Shown: positions 589 to 59,079 of the stretch, one piece after another
Layout: the number at the start of each line of letters is the position of its first letter
How positions within the stretch are numbered: the first letter of the stretch is position 1
Origin: Candidatus Hydrogenedentota bacterium
Lineage (GTDB): Bacteria; Hydrogenedentota; Hydrogenedentia; Hydrogenedentales; JAEUWI01
NCBI GenBank assembly: GCA_019637335.1
Contig: JAHBVV010000003.1
Location: forward strand, 124,001 to 188,000
Direction of reading: 5' to 3'
Length of the DNA stretch: 64,000 bases
Translations under genes and position numbers: made by a program
Notes under the pieces: model-generated
What the model was told of the DNA's origin: nothing
The model's database searches: none
What the model saw: the letters and a program-made list of their open reading frames with translations, nothing else

Positions 589-1590
589 ATGGCCCCGCCA
601 GAAATATCCGCCGTCATGCCTGTGTTCAATGCGCGGGAAACCCTCGCCGAGGCCATCGCCTCGATCCAGGCGCAGGACTACCCGGATTGGGAGCTGATCG
701 TGGTCGACGACGGCTCGACCGACGGCGGCGGCGACCTCGCCATGGACCTCGCGCGCTCGGATCCCCGCATACGAGTGCGCCGGGATCTCCACCGGGGGCT
801 GGTCCCCGCCCTCGCTGCCGGATGCGCTGCCGCCCGCGGCGCGTTCATCGCCCGCATGGACGCTGACGACACATGCGCGCCGGAACGCTTCTCCCGCCAG
901 CTTGCCTGGTTTGCGGACAATCCCGGCGGCGGCCTCTGCGGGACCCGCGTGCGCGCGATCGGTGGGCCGGTCCGCGTCGGGCGGCGCCGCTACATCGATT
1001 GGCTCAACGCCAACACCGATCACGACGCCATCGACCGGGAGCTCTTCATCGAATGCCCCATCGCGCACCCGGCCTTCATGATGCGGCGCGACGCCTTCGA
1101 GGGGCTGGGGGGCTACCGCGAATTCGACGGCCCGGAGGACTACGACCTGGTCTTTCGCTTCTGGCGCGCGGGCTACCGCCTCGGCAATGTCCCGGAGACC
1201 CTGCTCAACTGGCGCGAAACGCCCGGCCGCCATTCCATGGCCTCGTCGCGCTACAGCGAAGCCGCGTTCCGACGCCTCAAGCGCGCGTGGCTCGATCGCG
1301 CGGGCATCGGCCGCGACCGCCCGTGGTTCCAGTGGGGCGCGGGCGAAGTGGGGAAGCGCTGGCTCCGCGAATGGCCCCCGGGCGAAATGGAGGCCGTGGT
1401 CGACATCCGCCCCGGAAAGATCGGGCAGGAAATCCACGGCTGTACGGTCATCCGCCCCGAAGACCTGCCGCCGCCCGGCGCGTGCTTCGTGCTCATCGCC
1501 GTCGGAACGCCCGGCGCCCGCGATATCATCCGCGCCTGGTGCGCCGATCACGGCTACCGCGAGTGCGCGGACTACCGCTTCATCGCCTGA
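589..1590 (+). CDS. Family 2 glycosyltransferase with a C-terminal Rossmann-like extension
   Basis: The 333-residue protein starts with a GT-A fold: 'ISAVMPVFNA' near residue 6, 'LIVVDDGSTDGG' near residue 37, and 'ARMDADDTCAPERF' with the DxD-type nucleotide-sugar/metal motif near residues 88-92. 'GPEDYDLVFRFWRAGY' is the acceptor/base region. About 90 residues after the GT domain contain 'WGAGEVGKRWL', resembling a dinucleotide-binding loop, and may form a small accessory domain. The ATG at 589 was chosen because the GT fold starts right after it; upstream in-frame sequence overlaps the GH51 gene. The sugar and acceptor cannot be named. Confidence 0.85.
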   Translation: MAPPEISAVMPVFNARETLAEAIASIQAQDYPDWELIVVDDGSTDGGGDLAMDLARSDPRIRVRRDLHRGLVPALAAGCAAARGAFIARMDADDTCAPERFSRQLAWFADNPGGGLCGTRVRAIGGPVRVGRRRYIDWLNANTDHDAIDRELFIECPIAHPAFMMRRDAFEGLGGYREFDGPEDYDLVFRFWRAGYRLGNVPETLLNWRETPGRHSMASSRYSEAAFRRLKRAWLDRAGIGRDRPWFQWGAGEVGKRWLREWPPGEMEAVVDIRPGKIGQEIHGCTVIRPEDLPPPGACFVLIAVGTPGARDIIRAWCADHGYRECADYRFIA

Positions 1591-1684
1591 ACGCGCAACG
1601 GTCGGGCGTTGCAGCCCTCCGGGGACACGCGCTACACTACCGCCCCTGCACGCACGCTCCACCCTCCAGATAAAGGATACTTCC

Positions 1685-2788
1685 ATGGGCATACTCGCCG
1701 ATCGCATGAACCGCATTGACGCCAGCGGCATCCGCAAGGTCTTCGCCATGGCCGCCACCATGAAAGATCCGGTTAACCTCAGCATCGGCCAGCCGGACTA
1801 CGACGTCGACGCCGCCGTCAAGGCCGAAGCGATCGCGGCCATCCAGGGCGGCTTCAACGGCTACACCCAGACCTGGGGCACGGAGGAGCTGCGGGACGCC
1901 ATCGCGGGCTATTACGATGCGCGCTTCGGCGCGAAGCTGGAAAACGTCATGGTCACCAGCGGCGTCTCCGGCGGGCTCTACCTGGCGCTCATGGCCACCA
2001 TCAATCCCGGGGACGAGGTCATCTTCGCCGACCCCTATTTCGTGATGTACACCCACCTGGTGAACCTCCTCGGCGGAACCCCCGTGCCGGTCTCCACCTA
2101 TCCCGACTTCAAGCTCACCCCCGAGCGTGTGGAGGCCGCCATCACCCCGAAAACCAAAATGCTCATCGTCAATTCGCCCGCCAACCCCACCGGCGTCACT
2201 CTCAACGGCCAGGAACTCGCCGCCCTCGCCGCCGTGGCGCGCAAGCACAACCTCCTCGTGATCGCGGACGAGATCTACGAGGCCCTCCTCTACGATGAAA
2301 AGGCCGCGACCATGGTCGGGATGTACGAGAACGTCATCCTCCTCAACGGCCTCAGCAAGTCCGCCGGCATGACCGGCTGGCGCCTGGGCTGGGCGGCGGG
2401 CCCGGCGGAAATCATCCAGGCCATGAACACACTCCAGCAGTACACCTTCGTGTGTGCGCCCTCGGTCGCCCAGAAGGCCGCCGTCGTCGCGCTCGGGGCC
2501 GACATGGAGCCCAAAGTCGCCGCCTACCGCGAAAAGCGCGACATTATCTACAACGGCCTGAAAGACCGGTTCAATGTCACCCGGCCCGGCGGCGCCTTCT
2601 ACATCTTCCCCGAGGCCCCCGGCGGGGACGGCGATGCCTTCGTGAAAAAAGCCATCGAGAACAACCTGCTCATCATTCCCGGCTCCGTCTTCAGCGGCGC
2701 GAAAACACACTTCCGGATTTCCTTCGCCGCCACCAACGACACCCTCCGAAAGGGAATCGACATCCTGCACCGGCTCGCAGCCGGTTGA
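1685..2788 (+). CDS. PLP-dependent class I/II aminotransferase (aspartate aminotransferase family)
   Basis: The 367-residue protein is of typical length for fold-type I aminotransferases. It shows 'NLSIGQPDYDV' near the N-terminus, the substrate-loop motif 'NSPANPTGV', 'VIADEIYEALLYD' (Asp/Tyr pair contacting PLP) and the Schiff-base motif 'SKSAGMTGWRLGW', with the lysine in SKS and the phosphate-binding arginine in GWRLGW. It probably transfers amino groups between an amino acid and 2-oxoglutarate in the cytoplasm; exact substrates are not deducible. The ATG follows 'aaaggatacttcc', a reasonable ribosome-binding site. It has its own upstream gap and appears monocistronic. Confidence 0.88.
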   Translation: MGILADRMNRIDASGIRKVFAMAATMKDPVNLSIGQPDYDVDAAVKAEAIAAIQGGFNGYTQTWGTEELRDAIAGYYDARFGAKLENVMVTSGVSGGLYLALMATINPGDEVIFADPYFVMYTHLVNLLGGTPVPVSTYPDFKLTPERVEAAITPKTKMLIVNSPANPTGVTLNGQELAALAAVARKHNLLVIADEIYEALLYDEKAATMVGMYENVILLNGLSKSAGMTGWRLGWAAGPAEIIQAMNTLQQYTFVCAPSVAQKAAVVALGADMEPKVAAYREKRDIIYNGLKDRFNVTRPGGAFYIFPEAPGGDGDAFVKKAIENNLLIIPGSVFSGAKTHFRISFAATNDTLRKGIDILHRLAAG

Positions 2789-3429
2789 CCGCGAAGCGCG
2801 CGGAAATGGCAGGATCGCGGACATTCCTGTCCGCGGCAACGTGAGCCCACTTCCAATAAATTCCCCTGACCCACCAAAACCACCTCGAAAAGAAAGTGGC
2901 ACAGGCGTCTCGCCTGTGTTCAGCGCCGCAAGGCGCAAATGCAGGATAGCCGTCCCGGCTGTCCACCGCGCCAAAGGCGCAAAGGATCGCGGACATTCCG
3001 TGGCAGGCTGAGCGCAGGACTTCAAATAATGGTTGCGCCTGTGAAATGGCCCCGGTGCTCGTTGGTTGCATTGCCGCTTTCGCGGACGCGGGGAATCCAT
3101 ACCAGAGCAGCCGCTCATGGCGCGTAGCGTCACCCATTCAGGATGAGAATCGACGGCGGCTTCGCCGCCTGCGCTCCCAGCCTTTGCCGCTTCCTTTTTT
3201 GGGGATACTGTGATCTGGTTTGTATGAGGCCATTGTGGTGATGATATGGCGCTCGATAGTCGGAGCGGGCGTTGCCGCAGTCAGGCCGACGGTCCGCCGG
3301 TGCGGATATGTTCGCGATCCTTCTCCGCGCGTTGCTGCTCCAGACGGCTGAACTGATACGGGAAACAGAAGCCCCGCGCGGCGATGATGCCGCGCGGGGC
3401 TTCGTATAAATTGATTGACTTATCCCGTA
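2789..3429. repeat. Gene-free spacer filled with short palindromic repeats
   Basis: No convincing gene is present between the aminotransferase and the convergent PEP-CTERM gene. The spacer holds a chain of hairpin-forming modules. Near 2812-2840 is 'ggatcgcggacattcctgtc' followed by 'cgcgg'. At 2901-2918 is ACAGGCGTCTCGCCTGTG. Around 2930-3004 are gccgtcccggctg and a second ggatcgcggacattcc, and near 3151-3168 is cggcggcttcgccgcctg. The same modules recur at 10964-11116, 41734-41770, 56954-56971 and 60861-60878. They look like REP/BIME-type remnants. Confidence 0.6.
3368..3403 (-). terminator. Hairpin terminator downstream of the PEP-CTERM gene
   Basis: A perfect 15-bp stem (GAAGCCCCGCGCGGC at 3368-3382, partner at 3389-3403) closes a 6-base loop. 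It lies 27 bases beyond the stop of the leftward PEP-CTERM gene. On the minus strand it is followed by a short T-containing tract (TGTTTCC), so it is a plausible, if not U-rich, terminator. Confidence 0.6.
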
Positions 3430-4131
3430 TCAGACCTTCCGGAAACGCGCGCGGGCGCCCAGCGCAAGCGCGCCCAGGCCCATCAGCGTGACCGTGGCCG
3501 GTTCCGGAATCGGCGCGTGGCTTGTCTGGCCGAAGCGGATGTTGTCAATGCCGACGTTGTCCGAACTGCCGCCCAGACCCGTCTGGTCAATCTCGATCCG
3601 GAGGGATTCCGCCGTAAGCGGGCCATTGAAGTCAAACGACGTATGCGTGCTGGCCAGGATGACGTCCGCCAGGCTTTCGAAGAGCACCGCGTTGTTCTGA
3701 TCGTACACGCGAATCGTGCGCACCGCCGAGTTGCTCAGCCACGAACCGACATCGAAGCCATACAGCTGCACTTCGTACCCGGCATCCGCCGTGAAAAGCA
3801 CCTCCAGCGGGCCCTGGCCGACGCCCGGAATGTAGATGACATTCGTCAGGTCGCTGTAGGCGGTACTCCAGAACGCCGGATTCGGAACGCCGTAGTCGAC
3901 GACCACATTGGGGGTGAAGCCTTCACTCCCGACTCCATAACTGCCCGTCGCGTCAATCAGCCCCGTCACCCGATCACCGTAATCCTGATCGATCAGCTGA
4001 CCATTGCCAATCGGATTTCCGCCCACATTGAGCAGGTCATCAAACGTCAGAATGGTGGCGCCGGCGCTGCCCGCCAGTGTCGATACAGCCAGCGCAGCCA
4101 GCGCCGACACAACAATACCCGATTTCTTCAT
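3430..4131 (-). CDS. PEP-CTERM sorting domain protein
   Basis: A 233-residue exported protein. Residues 1-25 form a signal peptide (MKKSG..., then an Ala/Leu core ending in GSAGA). The middle is Gly/Asp/Asn-rich and beta-like, as in secreted surface proteins. The C-terminus carries the tripartite sorting signal: 'PIPEPATVTL', a short hydrophobic helix 'LMGLGALALGA', and the basic tail 'RARFRKV'. Known PEP-CTERM proteins are recognised by an exosortase and released or anchored at the surface, often with exopolysaccharide. The ATG at 4131 was chosen because an AGAGGAG ribosome-binding site precedes it and the signal peptide starts there. No exosortase is in the window. Confidence 0.85.
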   Translation of the reverse strand: MKKSGIVVSALAALAVSTLAGSAGATILTFDDLLNVGGNPIGNGQLIDQDYGDRVTGLIDATGSYGVGSEGFTPNVVVDYGVPNPAFWSTAYSDLTNVIYIPGVGQGPLEVLFTADAGYEVQLYGFDVGSWLSNSAVRTIRVYDQNNAVLFESLADVILASTHTSFDFNGPLTAESLRIEIDQTGLGGSSDNVGIDNIRFGQTSHAPIPEPATVTLMGLGALALGARARFRKV

Positions 4132-29061: not shown

Positions 29062-30684
29062 ATGAACACTCCAGCCTCACCGCTCCGCGCTATGGCCGAA
29101 TCCATCCACGCGCAGGAAGAAACCCTGCGCCAGGGCGGCGGCCCGCGCGGCCAGGAGCGGCAGCACCGGCTCGGACGCCTCCTCGCCCGCGAGCGCATCG
29201 CCCGCCTGCTGGACCGTCCGGAGGACTTCTTCGAAATCGGGCTGTGGGCCGCCTGGGAGATGTACCCCGAAGTGGGGCCCGTCGCCGCCGCCGGCGTGAT
29301 CGCCGGTATCGGACGCATCCACAACCGCCCCTGCATGATCATCGCCAACGACGCCACCGTGAAGGCCGGCGCCTTCTTTCCGCAGACCTGCAAGAAGCTC
29401 CTGCGCGCCCAGCGCATCGCCTTCGAAAACGCGCTGCCGATTATCTACCTGGTGGATTCTTCCGGCGTCTACCTGCCCATGCAGGACGAGATCTTCCCCG
29501 ATGAAGACGACTTCGGGCGCATATTTCGAAACAATGCGGTCCTTTCCGCCGCCGGACTCCCGCAGTTCGCCGCGATCATGGGCAATTGCATCGCCGGCGG
29601 CGCCTACCTGCCCGTCCTGTGCGACAAGATCCTCATGACCGAGGGCAGCGGGCTCTATCTCGCCGGTCCCGCCCTCGTGAAGGCCGCCATTGGCCAGACC
29701 GCCGATCCCGAGGATCTCGGCGGCGCCGCCATGCACGCGGCCATCAGCGGCACGGTCGATTTTCGCGAGCCGGACGACGACGCCTGCCTCGCGCGGATCC
29801 GCGCGCTCGTGGAACTGCTCCCCGCGGAACGCTGGGAAGCGCGCGACGTTGCCGCCGTGGCGCCCGAGTTGGATCCGGAGTCCATATACGGCCTCGTGGA
29901 GCCCCACGGCCGAAAAGAGTACGACGCGCGCAAGCTGATCGCGGCCATCGCCGACGCGGGCTCGATAAACGAATACAAGGCCGAGTATGGCCAGTCGCTG
30001 ATCACGGTCTATGCGAAGATCGGCGGGTGCCCGGCCGGGATAGTGGCCAACCAGCGCATGCGCACCCAATCCGCCCGCGGCGAAGTGCAGATCGGCGGCG
30101 TGATCTACCCCGACAGCGCGGATAAGGCCGCCCGCTTCGTGATGGACTGCAACCAGATGGGCCTGCCGCTCGTCTTCCTGCAGGATGTGACCGGGTTCAT
30201 GGTCGGGCGCGACGCCGAACAAGCCGGCATCATCAAGTGCGGCGCCAAGCTGGTCAACGCCCTGAGCAACGCGATCGTGCCGAAGATTACCGTGGTGGTG
30301 GGCGGTAGTTTCGGCGCGGGGAACTATGCGCTCTGCGGCAAGGCCTACGACCCACGCTTCATCTTCGCCTGGCCCAACGCCCAATACGCCGTCATGGGCG
30401 CCGCCCAGGCCGCCGGCGTCATCTTCGACATCTCCCGCAAGGCCGCCGAAGCCGATGCCCACCGCGCCGGCGCCGAACTCGACCACGACGCCCTGGAAAC
30501 CCTGCGAAAACAGGTGCACGCCGACTACACCCACAAGACCGACATCCGCTACGGCGCCGCCCGCGGCTGGGTCGACGCCATCATCGCGCCCCACGAGACG
30601 CGGGAGGTGCTCTGCGCGTGCCTCGGGCTCGTCTCCCGCGAGACGCCAACCGGCGCCTACAAAACCGGCGTAATCCAGACCTGA
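29062..30684 (+). CDS. Acyl-CoA carboxylase carboxyltransferase subunit (methylcrotonyl-CoA-like)
   Basis: A 540-residue biotin-dependent carboxyltransferase with N- and C-terminal crotonase-like halves ('CMIIANDATVKAGAFFPQTC'; 'PLVFLQDVTGFMVGRDAEQA'; 'VVVGGSFGAGNYALCGKAYD' followed by 'PRFIFAWPNAQ'). The 'GAGNYALCGKAYDPRF.F.WPN' block is typical of MCC beta subunits. It carboxylates an acyl-CoA using carboxybiotin; the biotin carboxylase subunit is not in the window. ATG 29062 is preferred over an upstream TTG overlapping the dehydrogenase. The final 134 bp of this gene are duplicated at 34030-34163, and the last 40 bp plus downstream sequence at 35918. Confidence 0.9.
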   Translation: MNTPASPLRAMAESIHAQEETLRQGGGPRGQERQHRLGRLLARERIARLLDRPEDFFEIGLWAAWEMYPEVGPVAAAGVIAGIGRIHNRPCMIIANDATVKAGAFFPQTCKKLLRAQRIAFENALPIIYLVDSSGVYLPMQDEIFPDEDDFGRIFRNNAVLSAAGLPQFAAIMGNCIAGGAYLPVLCDKILMTEGSGLYLAGPALVKAAIGQTADPEDLGGAAMHAAISGTVDFREPDDDACLARIRALVELLPAERWEARDVAAVAPELDPESIYGLVEPHGRKEYDARKLIAAIADAGSINEYKAEYGQSLITVYAKIGGCPAGIVANQRMRTQSARGEVQIGGVIYPDSADKAARFVMDCNQMGLPLVFLQDVTGFMVGRDAEQAGIIKCGAKLVNALSNAIVPKITVVVGGSFGAGNYALCGKAYDPRFIFAWPNAQYAVMGAAQAAGVIFDISRKAAEADAHRAGAELDHDALETLRKQVHADYTHKTDIRYGAARGWVDAIIAPHETREVLCACLGLVSRETPTGAYKTGVIQT

Positions 30685-30740
30685 CGGGCTATTCCAGCCC
30701 GCACCGCTGATCCACCTCGACCAGCACGCCGCGGAGTTCG
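30645..30740 (+). repeat. 96-bp direct repeat, left copy (carboxylase tail plus LRR-gene tail)
   Basis: Matches 35918-36013 with about three differences. It comprises the last 13 codons of the carboxylase, a 5-base spacer and, in reverse, the last ~17 codons of the LRR/PKD lipoprotein gene. The LRR part here is a detached stub: the intact LRR gene lies 5.2 kb to the right. This marks the left edge of a large insertion between two formerly adjacent convergent genes. Confidence 0.9.
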
Positions 30741-30925
30741 TCGACTGTGTGCACCCGACCTCGCGGCGGGAGCGTTCCACTACGACCCATTGATCGGTAT
30801 GGGTCTTCTCGGCTGTCCACTTTGTCATTCCGGCGGCGTCTAAGGGGCGAATCGCGTTGACGCGCGGGCCGGGCGGGTGTTACACCAACACCCCGGCCCC
30901 ATCTATGGCCTCTGGAGAAATGCCG

Positions 30926-33900
30926 ATGCAGCCCCCATCCGATCTCGCCTTGTTGCAGCAGTGGCAGCTTCACCGGGACGCGCACGCGTTCAAGGCGTTG
31001 ACCCAGCGCTATGGCGGGCTGGTTTTCGGAATCTGCAACCGGGTGCTGAAGAATCAGGCCGACGCGGAGGAAATTACGCAAGAGTGCTTCCTGAAGCTGG
31101 CGCAGCACCCCACACCGCCGGAGCGCTCGGTAGGCGCCTGGCTCCATTCCGTGGCCGTGAATGCCGCGATCAACCGCATCCGCGCGGAGCAGCGTCGGCG
31201 CGCGCGAGAGGCCGTCCACGAAAGTGCGCGCCCCGTGACCAGCGAATATAGCGCGGGTGACGTCCTCGAACATGTGGATGAAGCTATCGGCCAATTGTCC
31301 GTCGCACAACGGCATTGCGTGGTGGGCTATTTTCTGGAGGGCAAGCCGCGCAGCGAGGTGGCGGCGGAACTGGGCGTCTCCACGAAGACGGTGCAACGGA
31401 AAACGGATGAGGCCATCGAACGCATACGGGAGACCCTCGCGCGGCGCGGCATCACGACGAGCGCCGGAGCGCTGGCGGTTACGATGGCGGGATTGAGCGC
31501 GGAAGCGCTCCCGGCGGGACTGGGCATTGCATTGGGCAAAATCGCGGTGGCGGGCAGTGCCCGCGCGGCAACACGGGCTGTGGCAGGAAAATCGATCAAC
31601 ACAGGGGGCGCCATGATGATGAAGGCAGCGGCATTGGCAATAGCAGGATTGGTATTGGTGTCGGGGGCGATCTGGTGGCGTGCGGGCGTCAGCGATTGGG
31701 GAACGGCTTCGGTCGCCGCCCCGGCCCCGCCCCCCGCGGCGCTCAATGCGGCCACTTCGCCGGACGCGCCTGCGGATTCGGCGGTACCGCCGGTGGAGGT
31801 AGCGGCGATACCGGAGACCTCCCCCGCGCTCTCCCCGGCAGATAGCGCCCCCGCGCTGGTCTCGCTGGACGCAATCGCACCGATTGCAAACCCGACGCGC
31901 TATGCGGCGCTGGCGGGCACGGTGGTGGATGACGCCCAACGCCCAATTCCCGGCGCGACGGTCACGCTGCTGGTGGCGGGCTTCTCCAACGAGGCCGCGT
32001 CAACCATCCATCTGGAGGGTTTTCCGCCCGCCGCGCCCTTGGCCAACCAACGACTGGAGAATCGGCGCAGGATGGAGGCGCAACTAGCGGCCTATTCGCT
32101 GCCGGGCCACCGGTACACGGCGAAGGCGGACGAATCGGGGCAGTTTCTGATTGAGGGCATCCAATACCAGGGCACGGCGGTCGTTGCAGCGGAGGCGGAA
32201 GGGTTTACGCTAATCCAGCAGTCGCTCGAAATAGCGGAAAACACCGTAGCAGACGTGAAGTTCTCCCTGGCCCCGGCCCGGACGATTGTGGGCCGGATCG
32301 TGACGCCTTCGGGCGAACCCATCGCCGATGCGCGGGTCGCCACCTTCTCGGTGACCGTTCGGAGCGGGAATTTTTCCGGTGAATCGGTCCCTTCGGAGCC
32401 CAATCGCCCGCGCAAGCGCATGAGTGGTGGCAGCGGTGGTGGATCCGGCGGCGGCGGATTTGGCGGCGGCGGAATTGGTGGCGGCGGCGTTGCTGGCGGT
32501 AGCGGATTTGCCGGCGGCGGTGGCGGCGTGGCAACAGGCGGCGCGAGCCGCTCGCCGGTTGTCCCGCCGTTGCAGGTGCGGACGGATAAGGACGGCTTCT
32601 TCGCGCTTGCCGTGGCGCACGCGACTTCGGCGGGGCTGTATGTCGAGAGCGATACCCAGGGGACGGCGGCCTTCACGGAGGTGCCCGTGGGCGCGGAGGA
32701 CGTGGTCACGCTGACGTGGCGGAACGAAATGGCCGCGCTGGATGGGCAGATCCTGCTGGACACGGGCGAGGCCGCATCCGGGCGCTACGTGTATATCGCC
32801 GGGCGCTTCGAGGCGCCGCCGCAGGCCGGGTCCGGCGCCTCCATCACGCAGGTCGAAGGAACCCAGCGTCACATCGCCACCGATGCGCAAGGCCGCTTCC
32901 GCTGCGATGCCCTGCCCGCGCACGAGATTTACACGGCCACGATCTACGATGCCTCCGGGCGCAAGCGCGGCGCGGCGGAACTCCCGGCACTGGCGCCCGG
33001 CAGCGCTACCCCTTGGACACATCGCCTCGCGCCGCCGTTGCAGGTTGCCGGCGTTGTCGTGGGGCAGCCTTCTGGAAAGCCCGTACAGGGTGCGAAAGTC
33101 TGGGGATTGCCCTCAAATGCCGCTGGCGGACCCGCCTCGGAAATGGAACAGACCACGACGGATCCGGACGGGCGTTTCTCCTTCGACTTTGTCGGGGAAG
33201 AAGGTGCGTACACGCTGGCCGCTTCGGTTTCCCCGTGGTGGGACGACAGCAATGGCACACCGGTGGATCTTGCCTATGGCGCAGCGAGCGAGGTAAGACT
33301 GGAAATCCCGGATCCGTGGGTGCGGCCGTTCCGAGTGGTTGACCCGGAGGGGCGTCCCGTGGCGGGCGCCGCAATCCGACTCCGACAGGAAAGTGGCCAC
33401 GGCAACCATCTTCAGGAGATACCGGGCCTATCGACGGACCGCAACGGGCGCGCCACCGTGCGCAATCTTGGCGAAGGCGTGACGGCCCAGGCCCTCTTCC
33501 GCCGCGAGGGCTATATTGAAGCCGTGAGCACGGCCTACCGTGGCACGACCGGGGAGCGTTGTGCGGAGGAGACGGTCACGATGTATCCCACTGCGGACCT
33601 GGTTGCACGGCTGGTGGATAACGCGGGAACGCCGATCGCCGATGGCGAGATCCTCATCCACGTGCGCTTCGGCGTCGGGGAGCGGCTACACCAGGTGGCG
33701 ACGGATGAAGGCGGTTGGCTGGTGCTGGACCAAGCCCTCCCCGCGACCGTCGTCGATATCGAGATCCGCCTGTCGCCCACCGAGTCGGACAACGCGCAGC
33801 TCTCTATGGCCAGTTTCGGTAATATTCCTGAAGACATGCGTCAGAGAATGCTGTCGCATGCCCTGGCCCAGGCCGCGCGCTCCGGCAGCCCCCATGCGAT

Positions 33901-33988
33901 GCTCAACGGCGTCACGCTGCACGCGGCGGGTGACAACGACCTGGGCGACCTTACACTGGCCGGGGAGCCGGAAGCCGTGGAGCCCTGA
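30926..33988 (+). CDS. ECF sigma factor fused to a membrane helix and carboxypeptidase-regulatory-like repeats
   Basis: A 1020-residue chimera. Residues 1-175 are a sigma-70-like ECF factor: region 2 ('HAFKALTQRYGGLVFGICNR', 'ADAEEITQECFLKLA', 'VGAWLHSVAVNAAINRIRAE') and region 4 ('QLSVAQRHCVVGYFLEGKPR' then 'SEVAAELGVSTKTVQRKTDE'). A membrane helix lies at ~229-252 ('AAALAIAGLVLVSGAIWW'). Residues 260-1020 are exported-type: a Pro/Ala linker, CarboxypepD_reg-like beta domains ('LAGTVVDDAQRPIPGATVTL', 'TIVGRIVTPSGEPIADARVA') and a Gly-rich stretch at ~497-540. The ATG at 30926 has GGAGA eight bases upstream; 30920 is an alternative. The sigma domain would be held at the membrane, so release or conformational coupling is implied. 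It sits in a duplication-bounded insert. Confidence 0.75.
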   Translation: MQPPSDLALLQQWQLHRDAHAFKALTQRYGGLVFGICNRVLKNQADAEEITQECFLKLAQHPTPPERSVGAWLHSVAVNAAINRIRAEQRRRAREAVHESARPVTSEYSAGDVLEHVDEAIGQLSVAQRHCVVGYFLEGKPRSEVAAELGVSTKTVQRKTDEAIERIRETLARRGITTSAGALAVTMAGLSAEALPAGLGIALGKIAVAGSARAATRAVAGKSINTGGAMMMKAAALAIAGLVLVSGAIWWRAGVSDWGTASVAAPAPPPAALNAATSPDAPADSAVPPVEVAAIPETSPALSPADSAPALVSLDAIAPIANPTRYAALAGTVVDDAQRPIPGATVTLLVAGFSNEAASTIHLEGFPPAAPLANQRLENRRRMEAQLAAYSLPGHRYTAKADESGQFLIEGIQYQGTAVVAAEAEGFTLIQQSLEIAENTVADVKFSLAPARTIVGRIVTPSGEPIADARVATFSVTVRSGNFSGESVPSEPNRPRKRMSGGSGGGSGGGGFGGGGIGGGGVAGGSGFAGGGGGVATGGASRSPVVPPLQVRTDKDGFFALAVAHATSAGLYVESDTQGTAAFTEVPVGAEDVVTLTWRNEMAALDGQILLDTGEAASGRYVYIAGRFEAPPQAGSGASITQVEGTQRHIATDAQGRFRCDALPAHEIYTATIYDASGRKRGAAELPALAPGSATPWTHRLAPPLQVAGVVVGQPSGKPVQGAKVWGLPSNAAGGPASEMEQTTTDPDGRFSFDFVGEEGAYTLAASVSPWWDDSNGTPVDLAYGAASEVRLEIPDPWVRPFRVVDPEGRPVAGAAIRLRQESGHGNHLQEIPGLSTDRNGRATVRNLGEGVTAQALFRREGYIEAVSTAYRGTTGERCAEETVTMYPTADLVARLVDNAGTPIADGEILIHVRFGVGERLHQVATDEGGWLVLDQALPATVVDIEIRLSPTESDNAQLSMASFGNIPEDMRQRMLSHALAQAARSGSPHAMLNGVTLHAAGDNDLGDLTLAGEPEAVEP

Positions 33989-34029
33989 GGCGCCCCCGGC
34001 CTGCTGCCCGTATCGCACGGTGGGATCCC

Positions 34030-34163
34030 GCCGCCCGCGGCTGGGTCGACGCCATCATCGCGCCCCACGAGACGCGGGAGGTGCTCTGCGCGTGCCTCGG
34101 GCTCGCGTCCCGCGAGACGCCAACAGGCTCCTACAAAACCGGCGTAATCCAGACCTGACGGGC
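34030..34163 (+). repeat. Detached 134-bp copy of the carboxylase gene 3' end
   Basis: Identical to 30556-30689 except for about four bases, including the stop codon. It starts 41 bases after the sigma-fusion stop codon and encodes only the last ~43 codons of the carboxylase, with no start. High identity indicates a recent duplication. Confidence 0.92.
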
Positions 34164-34194: not shown

Positions 34195-34647
34195 TCAATC
34201 CCAGATGTAGGCTTCATCAAACGAGATCCCATACTTGCGTAGAAATGTGCGCAGCTCATCCTGAAAGGAACGGGACTTGTGGTGGGTTTCCTGGGCGTCG
34301 ATGTAGGCGAGCAATGCCCTGAGATCGCTGGGACCAACCGAGAAACACGCATATCCCCGCTGCCAGGTGAAACCGGCTATTCCGACACCGTCGGTTTTTG
34401 CCCAGCGCGACGAGGCGGTCTTGATCTCTTCAACAAGCGTTGCGATTGTAATGGTGCGGGAAAGCCGAATTGCCAGGTGGACGTGATCCGCCGCGCCGCT
34501 AGCGCGATAACATTCGCATCCGAGATCGCGCGCGATGGTCGCCAGGTAGGCGTGCATGCGTGGGCGCACGGGTTCGGATAACAAGGGAGCACGATTCTTC
34601 GTGCTGAAGATCAGGTGTACGAGAATCATACTCAGCGACTGTGGCAT
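34195..34647 (-). CDS. IS200/IS605-type Y1 transposase (TnpA / REP-associated)
   Basis: A 150-residue single-domain HUH endonuclease. 'MILVHLIFSTKNRAPLL' is the usual N-terminus, the metal-binding HUH is 'ADHVHLAIRLS' (His55, His57) and the catalytic tyrosine is Tyr115 in 'ALLAYIDAQETHH'. Length is normal for the family. The ATG at 34647 matches the family start. No TnpB accompanies it. REP-like doublets occur 90 bp upstream (34736-34830) and at 35568-35668 and 35775-35876, so it may serve as a domesticated REP-mobilising transposase, though a simple IS200 remnant is possible. Confidence 0.85.
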   Translation of the reverse strand: MPQSLSMILVHLIFSTKNRAPLLSEPVRPRMHAYLATIARDLGCECYRASGAADHVHLAIRLSRTITIATLVEEIKTASSRWAKTDGVGIAGFTWQRGYACFSVGPSDLRALLAYIDAQETHHKSRSFQDELRTFLRKYGISFDEAYIWD

Positions 34648-34735
34648 GGGAACACTCCTTGGAAGGTTTGGGTTCGTGGTATTGTGCCCTAAGTATCGTG
34701 ATTTGCCCGAATGTGGTGATGTTGGACCATAGCAG

Positions 34736-34830
34736 ATTATGAAGCGGGCTTTCAGCCCTTGTGGTGTTTGGCGCCGCATACGTGGGCCGTTGGCCCAGGC
34801 TGGTATGATCGGGCGCCTTCGGCGCTGCGG
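34736..34830 (-). repeat. REP-like doublet next to the Y1 transposase
   Basis: Contains gggccgttggccc, ggctggtatgatc and gcgccttcggcgc hairpin modules. It is the reverse complement of the units at 35568-35668 and 35775-35876. It lies 90 bp upstream of the transposase start. Confidence 0.75.
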
Positions 34831-35567: not shown

Positions 35568-35668
35568 TGCGCCAACGGCGCACGATCATACCAGCCTGGG
35601 CCATCGGCCCACGCGCCATTCGACCGCCCTCACATTCAGGGCCGTACGCCCGTTTCGTATGAAACGGA
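35568..35668 (+). repeat. REP-like doublet, second copy
   Basis: Modules in order: gcgccaacggcgc, acgatcataccagcctgggc, catcggcccacg, and gggccgtacgcccgtttcgt. It is shared with 35775-35876 and, inverted, with 34736-34830. Each doublet has three potential hairpins. Confidence 0.75.
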
Positions 35669-35774
35669 GTTGGCAGGGTTACGATTTCGTTGGAAGGGCG
35701 TCAATGTTTTCGAAGTTCGCACCGTATTTCCGGTCTTGAGGCAAGAATACCACGAGGTGGAAGGCGGCTTTCCG

Positions 35775-35876
35775 CTGCGCCAACGGCGCACGATCATACC
35801 AGCCTGGGCCATCGGCCCAGGTAACATGCGTCCCTCCTCAGCTCCAGGGCCGAAGGCCCGCTTCATATGAAACGGA
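35775..35876 (+). repeat. REP-like doublet, third copy
   Basis: Same modules as the copy at 35568 with a different central linker: gcgccaacggcgc, ataccagcctgggccatcgg, then gggccgaaggcccgcttcat. It is in the same orientation, 207 bp apart from the previous copy. Confidence 0.75.
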
Positions 35877-35917
35877 AGAAGCGCCGCAACAGAGTCTCCA
35901 GCGACCGCTCGACGCCC

Positions 35918-36013
35918 GCCAACCGGCGCCTACAAGACCGGCGTAATCCAGACCTGACGGGTTATTCCAGCCCGCACCGCTGGTCCACCTCGACCAGCAC
36001 GCCGCGGAGTTCG
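35918..36013 (+). repeat. 96-bp direct repeat, right copy
   Basis: Partner of 30645-30740. Here the carboxylase part is the detached stub and the LRR part is the intact gene end. Together the two copies bracket 5.2 kb. Confidence 0.9.
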
Positions 36014-37200
36014 AGCGTTGGGATTGCGTTGCACAGCGACACCGTGTTCAACGGGTTTCCCGTGAGGCGCAGGATATCGTTGCGCCCGAGGCCCGCATTT
36101 CGCACGAGGGGGGAGATGTTCTGAATCTGGTTTCGCTGGAGCGTGAGCAACTGCAACCGCTCCAATCCCGCCAGCGCGTCCACGGTCACGATCTGATTCG
36201 CCGAGAGCTGAAGCGCGCGCAGGTTCACCAGTTCCGCCAGGGGACCGATGTTCTGAATCAGGCATTCGAATAGCACCAGCTCCTCCAGATTTGTGAGCCC
36301 CGCGAGCGATCGCAACTCGTAAATGTCCGTCGCGGCCAGATCGAGAAACACCAGCCCGGTGAGCCCCGCGATCGCCACGAGCGCATCGCCATTCCCGGCC
36401 CCGTCGATCACCTCGCTCTGGCGGATACCCGTAAACGCCAGGGACAGCTCGCGCAGCGCCGTCAGGTGGCGCAGCGTGCGGATGTCCTCCAGGTCCGGGT
36501 TCTGCTCCAGATTGAGCAGGGCCAACCGCGCCAGGGGCTCCAGCGGGCGGATGTTGCTCACCGCGTTCACCCCCAGATCCAGCGTATGCAGGTTGGTGAG
36601 GTTCGCGATCGGGCTCAAATTGCGCACGTTGTTGTTGCGCAGGTTCAGCGCTTCCAGGCCGCGCAGCGATGCCAGCGGGCCAATGTCCGTTATCGCGTTC
36701 GATTCCAGTATCAGCGTCTTCAAATTCGTGGCGTGTTCCAGGCCCGACAGGTTGGAGATTCCCGCGCCCGTGGCGTCAAACGCCGTCAGCCGCTCCAGAT
36801 CCGCCACGCGAATGCTTGCCGAAGGTATCCCAAGCGCCCCCCGCAGCGCCGCGTCCAACCGCGTATCCGGAAACCGCACGATCTGACGCACCTGGATGTA
36901 GTCCTGGCGAAAACGGATGCCCGTCCCGCGCACCGTCTCGATGCGCAACGTGACGCTGTACGTCCCGCGGTTCTGGTAGGTGTACACCGGGTTGCGCGCC
37001 GTGCTCGTGCCCCCATCGCCAAAGGTCCAGTTCCAGCTCAGGATCTGGTCGCCCAGCGTGTCGCTCCGGTCCTGAAACGTCACCGTGAGCGGCAGGTCGC
37101 CCTCCGTCACCGCCGCCTCGAAATCCGCAACCGGACCGAAGAGGCTGCAACTCCCCAGCATCAGGGCCAGGCCCGCCATGACTAAGATCTGTAGACGCAT
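35962..37200 (-). CDS. Leucine-rich-repeat lipoprotein with an N-terminal PKD domain
   Basis: The 412-residue protein has a lipoprotein signal peptide with lipobox L-G-S-Cys18. Residues ~25-105 form a PKD domain ('LSWNWTFGDGGTSTARNPVY' is the hallmark 'WxFGDG'). Residues ~135-395 are ~22-residue leucine-rich repeats of the internalin type ('NLKTLILESNAITDIGPLAS', 'LEALNLRNNNVRNLSPIANL', and so on). It is probably surface- or periplasm-anchored and binds proteins or polysaccharides. Its last 17 codons are duplicated at 30690-30740. Confidence 0.85.
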   Translation of the reverse strand: MRLQILVMAGLALMLGSCSLFGPVADFEAAVTEGDLPLTVTFQDRSDTLGDQILSWNWTFGDGGTSTARNPVYTYQNRGTYSVTLRIETVRGTGIRFRQDYIQVRQIVRFPDTRLDAALRGALGIPSASIRVADLERLTAFDATGAGISNLSGLEHATNLKTLILESNAITDIGPLASLRGLEALNLRNNNVRNLSPIANLTNLHTLDLGVNAVSNIRPLEPLARLALLNLEQNPDLEDIRTLRHLTALRELSLAFTGIRQSEVIDGAGNGDALVAIAGLTGLVFLDLAATDIYELRSLAGLTNLEELVLFECLIQNIGPLAELVNLRALQLSANQIVTVDALAGLERLQLLTLQRNQIQNISPLVRNAGLGRNDILRLTGNPLNTVSLCNAIPTLELRGVLVEVDQRCGLE

Positions 37201-57254: not shown

Positions 57255-58448
57255 TCACTCGTCTTCCGTCGCGTCCAACGGCTGCTCCACACCCCCCTCC
57301 GCATCCTCCCGCCGGAATTCATACCATGCCCCGTCAAGCGCCACGATAACCGGCTCCGCGACATCACACAGGTGGTGCAGGTCATTGTGCCGGTCCAACA
57401 TCGCGTTCCAGGCGGCGGACGGAATCGCAATCACCGTGCGCGGCTCCGCGCCATAGCCCGCCTCGCGCCAGGTCCCATCCTCCAGGCGGAATTCGCGATC
57501 GCGCCACTGCCGGACCGTCACCGCGACGGCGTCCGCCGGCCCCTCGGCCAGATCGGGCGCCGGTGGCGCCATCTTAAGTTGGAAAGCGGCCTCGGGGGCC
57601 TCTGAACTCTCTTTCGCCGCACCGGGCCCGGCGGGCGCAACCGGTTCCTCGGCCGGCTGAGACGCGGCCCGCGCGCCCGCAGCCCGACCCAACGCGGCGC
57701 CGCCGCCAAATCCACCACCTGCCAAACCGCCGCCGCCGAAGCCGCCACCTCCACCCCCAAGCCCGACGCCCCGCGCGCCGTCATCCGCCGCCGCCGATTC
57801 GGCCTCCAGAGGCTCCGACGCCATGGCGGTTTCCGCGGCAGTGGCGCCGGCGGCCAGATCCTCCCGCCCAATCGCGCGGGCGGGCGCGGGTGGTGACGCA
57901 GGTGGCGCCGGAGCGGGTGGGGGCGCGGCTCCTGCGCTCTCCGAGAACGCGGCCACGTCTTCATCCGACATCGCGGGCGCCGATCGCAGCGCCAGCGTTT
58001 CGCCCGAGAGCGGGGCGGCGGGCGGCGCCTCGGCCATCGGCATCGCCTCGTTCGCCATGTGGGCTTCGGGCGCAGCCGCACTCGGCGCCGCCTCGTACCG
58101 CGCCATATCCAGCGCGCTCTGGCCCGACTGGGCCCCGCGCCATACCACCAGACCGCCGACCAGCGCGATTGACGCCGCCGCCAGCCCATAGCGCCACCAG
58201 AACGCGCCCGGCAGCCGCCGGGACGCGGGCCGGAGCGCTTCCCGCACGCGCGCTTCGAAATCCGCCGGCGCCTTCACCGGATGGTGATACCGGTACGCTT
58301 CCGTGACCTGCTTGTAGCCGTGCAGCTCACGGAGGCAGTCGGAGCATTCCGAAAGGTGCTCTTCCACCAGCTCGCGGTCTTCCGCGTTAAGCTCGTCATC
58401 GAGCAGCGCCGAGAATTCGGTCCGTATGTGTTCGCAATTCAAGGCCAT
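57255..58448 (-). CDS. Zinc-finger anti-sigma factor with transmembrane helix and glycine-rich linker
   Basis: The 397-residue protein starts with an anti-sigma zinc-binding domain ('EEHLSECSDCLRE', giving His31-x3-Cys35-x2-Cys38). A membrane helix lies at ~88-106 ('YGLAAASIALVGGLVVW'). The exported part is rich in Ala/Pro, then a Gly-rich stretch (~225-255), then a folded domain of ~110 residues ('RQWRDREFRLEDGTWREAGY', 'VIAIPSAAWNAMLDRHNDLH'). It should hold the ECF factor encoded 28 bases upstream. The ATG at 58448 follows the sigma stop at 58477. The signal sensed is unknown. Confidence 0.85.
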   Translation of the reverse strand: MALNCEHIRTEFSALLDDELNAEDRELVEEHLSECSDCLRELHGYKQVTEAYRYHHPVKAPADFEARVREALRPASRRLPGAFWWRYGLAAASIALVGGLVVWRGAQSGQSALDMARYEAAPSAAAPEAHMANEAMPMAEAPPAAPLSGETLALRSAPAMSDEDVAAFSESAGAAPPPAPAPPASPPAPARAIGREDLAAGATAAETAMASEPLEAESAAADDGARGVGLGGGGGGFGGGGLAGGGFGGGAALGRAAGARAASQPAEEPVAPAGPGAAKESSEAPEAAFQLKMAPPAPDLAEGPADAVAVTVRQWRDREFRLEDGTWREAGYGAEPRTVIAIPSAAWNAMLDRHNDLHHLCDVAEPVIVALDGAWYEFRREDAEGGVEQPLDATEDE

Positions 58449-58476
58449 AATCAATGGGGACGGGGCGAGGGCTTCC

Positions 58477-59079
58477 TTAGAGCAGCCCGCGCCGCGTCAG
58501 GCACTCCTTCAGCAGCTTGCGCGCCTGGTTCAAACGCGATTTCACCGTGCCCTCCGGGCAATCGGCGGATCGGGCGATGTCGCTGTAGCCAAGGTTGTCA
58601 AACGTGCGCAGCACAAATACCAGCCGGTACGTGTCCGGCAGGCCTTCCAGGCACGCCTTGAGCCCCTCGTCGAGCTCGCGCTTCTCCGCCAGATGGCTCG
58701 GCGTCACGTCCGTCGAGGTCGCCCGCTGCGCCACCGAAGGCGCGCTCTCGGAAAGCGCCTCGAACGATACCCCCATGTTCCGGCCCTTCCGGTTGCGATC
58801 GCGCAGCCGGTTGCGGCATGTGTTCGCGGCGATGCTGTACAGCCACGTGTACACCTGCGAATCGCCCTGGAACGTGCTCAAACTCCGGTACGCCCGCACA
58901 AACACCTCCAGCGCCACGTCCAGGCTGTCTTCATGGTTGCCAAGATAGCGGTACACCACGTTGTACACCCGGTCCTTGTAACGGCGGACCAGTTCGTCGA
59001 ACGCCGTCTCATCGCCGTTCAGGCAGGCCTCCACCAGATCAATATCCGGGGTCTTTCGGACAGCTTCCAGCAATTCCAC
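58477..59079 (-). CDS. RpoE-type ECF sigma factor
   Basis: A 200-residue ECF sigma. Region 2 ('AFDELVRRYKDRVYNVVYRY', 'SLDVALEVFVRAYRSLSTFQ', 'TWLYSIAANTCRNRLRDRNR') and region 4 ('CLEGLPDTYRLVFVLRTFDN' then 'LGYSDIARSADCPEGTVKSR') are complete. The start is GTG 59079. It is co-transcribed with its anti-sigma. The usual 'D.aQEvF' core is 'DVALEVF' here. A self-recognised promoter upstream was not identified with confidence. Confidence 0.9.
   Translation of the reverse strand: MELLEAVRKTPDIDLVEACLNGDETAFDELVRRYKDRVYNVVYRYLGNHEDSLDVALEVFVRAYRSLSTFQGDSQVYTWLYSIAANTCRNRLRDRNRKGRNMGVSFEALSESAPSVAQRATSTDVTPSHLAEKRELDEGLKACLEGLPDTYRLVFVLRTFDNLGYSDIARSADCPEGTVKSRLNQARKLLKECLTRRGLL

Follow-up and report, generated by a model that had tools for sequence, protein, structure and literature searches.

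A putative membrane-anchored ECF sigma factor with a CarboxypepD_reg array in a Hydrogenedentota bacterium and its fused relatives

Known membrane-fused ECF sigma factors are few, and most carry a recognisable anti-sigma domain. The ECF57 group comprises ECFs of the Planctomycetes, with WD40 as the reported extension. IutY of Pseudomonas putida (ECF243) is a sigma/anti-sigma fusion that Prc and RseP release by cleavage (PMC5411451, PMC8999054), its outside portion being trimmed to about 50 residues before the RseP cut is made (PMC5411451). In the Actinobacteria, ECF52, ECF53 and ECF48 (e.g. SCO4117) have C-terminal membrane-helix fusions, accompanied in ECF52 by a stretch rich in Pro and by an outer domain (PMC5826349, PMC8999054). 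The gene described here, at 30926-33988 of the window (the whole 64,000-nucleotide stretch that was analysed), has a layout of this general kind, with a sigma factor, a membrane helix and a predicted exported domain in one frame and without a separate anti-sigma.

Layout of the fused gene and its surroundings

The gene is a single stop-free frame of 1020 amino acids, for which the following features were recorded.

30926..33988 (+): ECF sigma, linker, membrane helix and CarboxypepD_reg array in one ORF of 1020 aa (reading frame, Pfam, AlphaFold)
30913..30916 (+): Shine-Dalgarno GGAG, about 9 nt 5' of ATG 30926, duplex -6.4 kcal/mol
30926..31450 (+): ECF sigma domain, residues 1-175, with sigma2 at 26-91 and sigma4 at 117-169 (Pfam, NCBIfam and PDB matches; fold)
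31451..31612 (+): conserved linker, residues 176-229 (alignment of 104 members)
31616..31684 (+): single transmembrane helix, residues 231-253 (hydropathy; AlphaFold helix at 234-254 or 231-253)
31685..31900 (+): Pro/Ala low-complexity spacer, residues ~254-325, predicted disordered (AlphaFold pLDDT <50)
31901..33775 (+): CarboxypepD_reg / Ig-CnaB-like beta-sandwich array, residues ~326-950, predicted exported (Pfam, AlphaFold strands, Foldseek)
32417..32560 (+): Gly-rich insert within the array, residues ~498-545 (translation; pLDDT ~30)

Residues 1-175 had been taken for a full ECF sigma factor in a sequence-only reading of the window, and sequence and structure comparisons agree on this. 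Pfam searches of the translated gene returned Sigma70_r2 at residues 26-91 (7.5e-14) and Sigma70_r4 (3.1e-7) together with r4_2 (4.8e-7) at residues 117-169, NCBIfam sigma70-ECF TIGR02937 was matched over residues 20-170 (1.2e-22), and sequence matches to solved structures in the PDB were found for SigK (5.5e-11) and SigL (1.3e-10). Modelled with AlphaFold, residues 1-260 showed pLDDT values mostly of 90-97 over the sigma part and a helix at 234-254; Foldseek aligned the sigma2 half with E. coli sigmaE region 2 (TMt 0.79) and the sigma4 half with 3hug_K (TMt 0.88). As in other ECF factors, sigma2 and sigma4 are joined by a short linker and sigma3 is lacking. A loss of core-binding residues, which had been named as grounds for abandoning the reading, was looked for, and the region 2 core-binding motif DAEEITQECFLKL proved to be intact. 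Further in-frame starts are present upstream of ATG 30926.

The most hydrophobic window of the protein, MMKAAALAIAGLVLVSGAI, starts at residue 231 (KD 1.99). A membrane helix had been expected after the sigma domain; the helix itself is found (residues 231-253), but it does not adjoin the sigma domain directly, as a conserved linker of about 55 residues separates the two. Beyond the helix, CarboxypepD_reg-like and Gly-rich sequence is present as described earlier, with six stretches matching PF13620 (3.8e-33), additional matches of the array to PF13715 and Big_1 in Pfam, the Gly-rich insert at ~498-545, and export predicted. The full AlphaFold model consists here of beta-sandwich strings that resemble surface pilins and adhesins in Foldseek. 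The order of membrane helix, Pro-rich stretch and outer domain is that of ECF52/53/48, with a different outer domain.

The linker contains the motif P..L...LG[KR].A, which reads L183..P196..L199...L203-G204-K205.A207..G210 in the window protein (numbered as alignment position plus 3). In an alignment of 104 family members, the conserved residues are L183 (87/104), P196 (94/104), L199 (91/104), L203 (80/104), G204 (79/104), K or R at 205 (97/104) and A207 (91/104), and across phyla the motif is as strongly conserved as many positions of the sigma domain. Residues 176-229 contain no Cys/His zinc site and no Pfam match, and AlphaFold does not dock the linker confidently on the sigma domain (pLDDT drops to 40-60). 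Such strong conservation suggests a regulated element, and the linker would be the best candidate for an inhibitory or protease-recognition element.

A search for a hidden zinc-finger anti-sigma had a negative outcome, with neither zf-HC2 nor another anti-sigma domain detected by Pfam in the protein, and with the zf-HC2 domains of the source genome adjoining six ordinary ECFs and none of the fusion genes. The proposal that the protein acts without an anti-sigma accords with both results. An ordinary ECF sigma gene beside a zf-HC2 anti-sigma gene can be seen elsewhere in the window, at 57255-59079 on the minus strand, in contrast with the fusion. Among 46 ORFs neighbouring the relatives, no family occurred more than twice, which speaks against a common neighbour or target gene, and the matches listed for them included no anti-sigma family. 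Promoter-like dyad counts in the upstream regions (n=64) barely exceed those of shuffles; autoregulation is thus unsupported.

Upstream of the fusion gene is a carboxyltransferase gene whose 3' end recurs in direct repeats, at 30555-30689 and 34029-34163, with a partial third copy at 35917-36013. Two of these repeats, which are 97% identical, bracket the fusion gene exactly, and the segment between them looks as if it had been duplicated or inserted. A search of the genome found just the three copies. Beside the repeats is an IS200-like Y1 transposase (34195-34779, minus strand), with inverted repeats nearby at 34779-34830, 35772-35823 and 35569-35613. A PKD and leucine-rich-repeat lipoprotein-like ORF (35962-37200, minus strand) has its C-terminal end in the repeated segment, which has a further copy at 30689-30740.

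The fusion family

To survey homologous fusions, the named genomes and 60 relatives were scanned and near-copies were removed, leaving 104 distinct fused members, a large family that the sequence-only reading had not foreseen. Within the source genome, four paralogues match the sigma domain, linker and helix (37-41% identity) and then continue into CarboxypepD_reg arrays, giving five close copies with the window gene included; a fifth paralogue is a distant ECF of the same layout. Members come from the Hydrogenedentota, the Planctomycetota, one Armatimonadetes MAG and one Kiritimatiellota MAG. At E<1e-40, 28 of 60 Hydrogenedentota genomes were positive (own genome included), some with at least 11 copies, as were 19 of 99 Planctomycetota genomes, in which all matches extend into the linker or helix. 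The helix lies at about 215-255 in those members that were inspected. Conserved cysteines that link sigma2 and sigma4 are a mark of ECF57; in the fusion family C54 is invariant, partly by construction since the scan of genome contigs demanded the peptide QEC, and C130 of sigma4 is not conserved in A1/A3.

An assembly or sequencing error joining two genes would produce a similar frame, and indels do occur in MAG assemblies, with a few relatives frame-broken (L070, L137) and the window gene itself sitting between short direct repeats of its upstream gene's 3' end. Against this stands the same fusion in five paralogues and about 100 relatives from many independent assemblies, with the linker conserved, so that an artefact is scarcely credible for this locus and is rejected for the family as a whole. 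The open frame and the recurrence of the fusion in the paralogues and homologues likewise bear out the earlier claim of one polypeptide with no hidden frameshift. It is confirmed that 30926-33988 encodes a single sigma-membrane-anchor fusion and that fusion is the rule in the family. Relatives that appear as short, sigma-only sequences are contig ends (L133, L134), a sequence that stops after the linker (L135), a broken frame (L137) and one true split (L136).

The outer parts are more varied. Of 50 members scanned, 29 have CarboxypepD_reg, two ankyrin repeats, one STN with FecR_C and one a SecDF head, and many have an outer part of unknown type; relatives from Schlesneria have several helices in this region, and L046 has a weak PD40 match. 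A constant sigma-linker-helix unit, combined with outer parts that can be swapped, is consistent with a signalling module. The member with STN and FecR_C (L036:4998-7082) ties the family to TonB-type cell-surface signalling. Fusion genes are found side by side in tandem in G001, G055 and G049 (L138, L144, L146, L155). One planctomycete genome encodes several ECFs with only distant kinship to the family (L207-L211), each of which has a helix and a CarboxypepD_reg array, and the layout has thus arisen or persisted in several ECF lines.

Tethering, release and a candidate internal start

The tethering proposed earlier is supported by the single polypeptide, its one conserved helix, the higher average positive charge on the sigma side and the exported-type beta-sandwiches beyond. 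Across the 104 members, net positive charge is higher before the helix than after it (0.92 versus 0.16, p=1e-4), a bias that is individually present in only 56 of them. Some relatives with several helices or with cytoplasmic-type repeats (ankyrin) past the first helix argue against a single topology, and not all family members may fit one.

The reading favoured here, and judged rather probable, is that of a membrane-anchored one-component ECF that is silent while tethered and freed by proteolysis. Its topology, inhibition, proteolysis, signal and regulon are what we infer for the fusion, as follows. Given the charge bias and the task of a sigma factor, the sigma2-sigma4 N-terminus would lie on the cytoplasmic face, anchored to the membrane by the conserved linker and one helix, with the CarboxypepD_reg array on the outside, where it would act as sensor or anchor. 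The tethered sigma would be kept away from RNA polymerase or from its promoters until a change in the surface array led to trimming on the outside and then to site-2 (RseP-type) cleavage in the helix, after which the freed sigma domain would drive its regulon, as in IutY. By analogy, a need for proteolytic release of the window protein, as raised in the sequence-only reading, seems reasonable. Site-2 protease homologues (PF02163) are present in the source genome, and also in 14 of 14 control genomes; being universal, their presence proves little.

The tether might instead not silence the sigma factor at all, and serve to have envelope genes transcribed close to the membrane, with the array mainly a surface anchor. 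The architecture by itself does not demand cleavage, sigma2 and sigma4 are complete, and several ECFs of Tuwongella immobilis have been recovered in detergent-soluble fractions (PMC8567305). However, the experimental precedent, IutY, requires release (PMC5411451), and the conservation of the linker speaks for a regulated element, which makes action within the membrane improbable. A separate question is raised by the sequence at the start of the helix, where a further feature was recorded.

31603..31621 (+): candidate internal ribosome-binding site AGGGGG (31603-31608) and in-frame ATG ATG ATG (31613/31616/31619), followed by Lys (sequence; enrichment at the corresponding position of relatives)

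A start at 31613-31619 is a possible candidate and would give a signal-anchored protein of about 791 aa without the sigma part. One gene might then have two products, the full fusion and an internally started, signal-anchored CarboxypepD_reg protein, and the latter might compete with the tethered sigma or modulate it. At 4-10 nt 5' of the ATG triplet, AGGGGG forms a duplex of -9.4 kcal/mol, stronger than that of the sigma start (-6.4). In the family, Met with K or R at the helix start is found in 35 of 104 members versus 9% of control windows, Gly-Gly before the helix is coded GGAGG in 14/34 cases versus 64/557 elsewhere (p=2.5e-5), and the density of ATG or GTG with a Shine-Dalgarno sequence is 0.96% at the helix start versus 0.15% elsewhere, or six times as high, although these pooled tests are inflated by kinship among the sequences. 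Both nearest relatives (L024, L139) retain the start and its Shine-Dalgarno sequence. The naturally split L136 (reverse complement 811-3500), which lacks the linker motif, is divided at exactly this place, its sigma gene stopping and, 44 nt on, AAGGGGG and an ATG leading in another frame into an 880-aa helix-CarboxypepD_reg protein.

On the other side, the signal is found in only 16 of 104 members and is absent from 88, shuffles of synonymous codons reach significance for just 3 of 35 when taken singly (p 0.32 for the window gene), and Lys and Met ahead of the helix are also consistent with simple membrane insertion. Mapped on the family tree, the internal start needs 11 changes. A second, sigma-less product from some family genes, the window gene included, is possible on this sequence evidence, but two products as the explanation of the locus are rather unlikely. 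Slightly more doubtful still is the fuller idea of a nested gene, in which one frame would yield both a tethered sigma and a free membrane sensor, a switch with its own competitor, the start being kept in part of the family and the split relative representing the two-gene counterpart. A separate internal start had been named beforehand as a sign of two proteins; a plausible signal for one does exist, but with 88 of 104 members lacking it the fusion stands as the family rule.

Comparison with known systems

The tethered and released ECF favoured above belongs to a large and little-studied family in which the linker is no known anti-sigma domain and the outer parts (CarboxypepD_reg, ankyrin, STN/FecR, multi-helix) are interchangeable. 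The family would lend itself to studying how a tether can silence the sigma factor that it carries, and it readily explains why many ECFs of these uncultured phyla lack a neighbouring anti-sigma gene. The family probably lets uncultured bacteria sense their own surface with one molecule. A literature search for CarboxypepD_reg-fused sigma factors found no paper, although an earlier description elsewhere is possible.

Like IutY, which is activated by release (PMC5411451, PMC8999054), the window protein combines an ECF sigma, a membrane helix and an extracytoplasmic part in one polypeptide. The outer part of IutY is a FecR-type cell-surface-signalling anti-sigma domain, whereas that of the window protein consists of CarboxypepD_reg beads, and Pfam searches for FecR and STN gave no match in it. 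With ECF52/53/48 it shares the C-terminal fusion with a membrane helix and, in the case of ECF52, the Pro-rich stretch and outer domain. Those groups, however, have a zinc-finger anti-sigma between sigma and membrane, and ECF52 also a carbohydrate-binding module; the window protein differs in having no zf-HC2, another linker motif and a CarboxypepD_reg array, and in coming from other phyla. Judged by sequence, it would appear to resemble both the IutY and the ECF52/53 type, yet to lack the defining features looked for in each (FecR/STN and the zinc finger, respectively).

The classical pair of ECF and zf-HC2 genes, as at 57255-59079, similarly has a sigma factor that is restrained, usually at the membrane, but uses two genes and a zinc-finger inhibitor in place of one fused protein. 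ECF57, with its large C-terminal extensions in related phyla, is the nearest reported group there, and the fusion-family profile also picks up long fused planctomycete ECFs, with matches that run through the linker and helix. WD40, for which Pfam gave no match in the window protein, is likewise absent from most relatives, which sets them apart from ECF57 as described. ECFs with fused membrane or sensor extensions have thus already been published (IutY, ECF52/53, ECF57), a general concept that the sequence-only reading had overlooked, and the window protein, which introduces no new principle, is a variation on this known theme.
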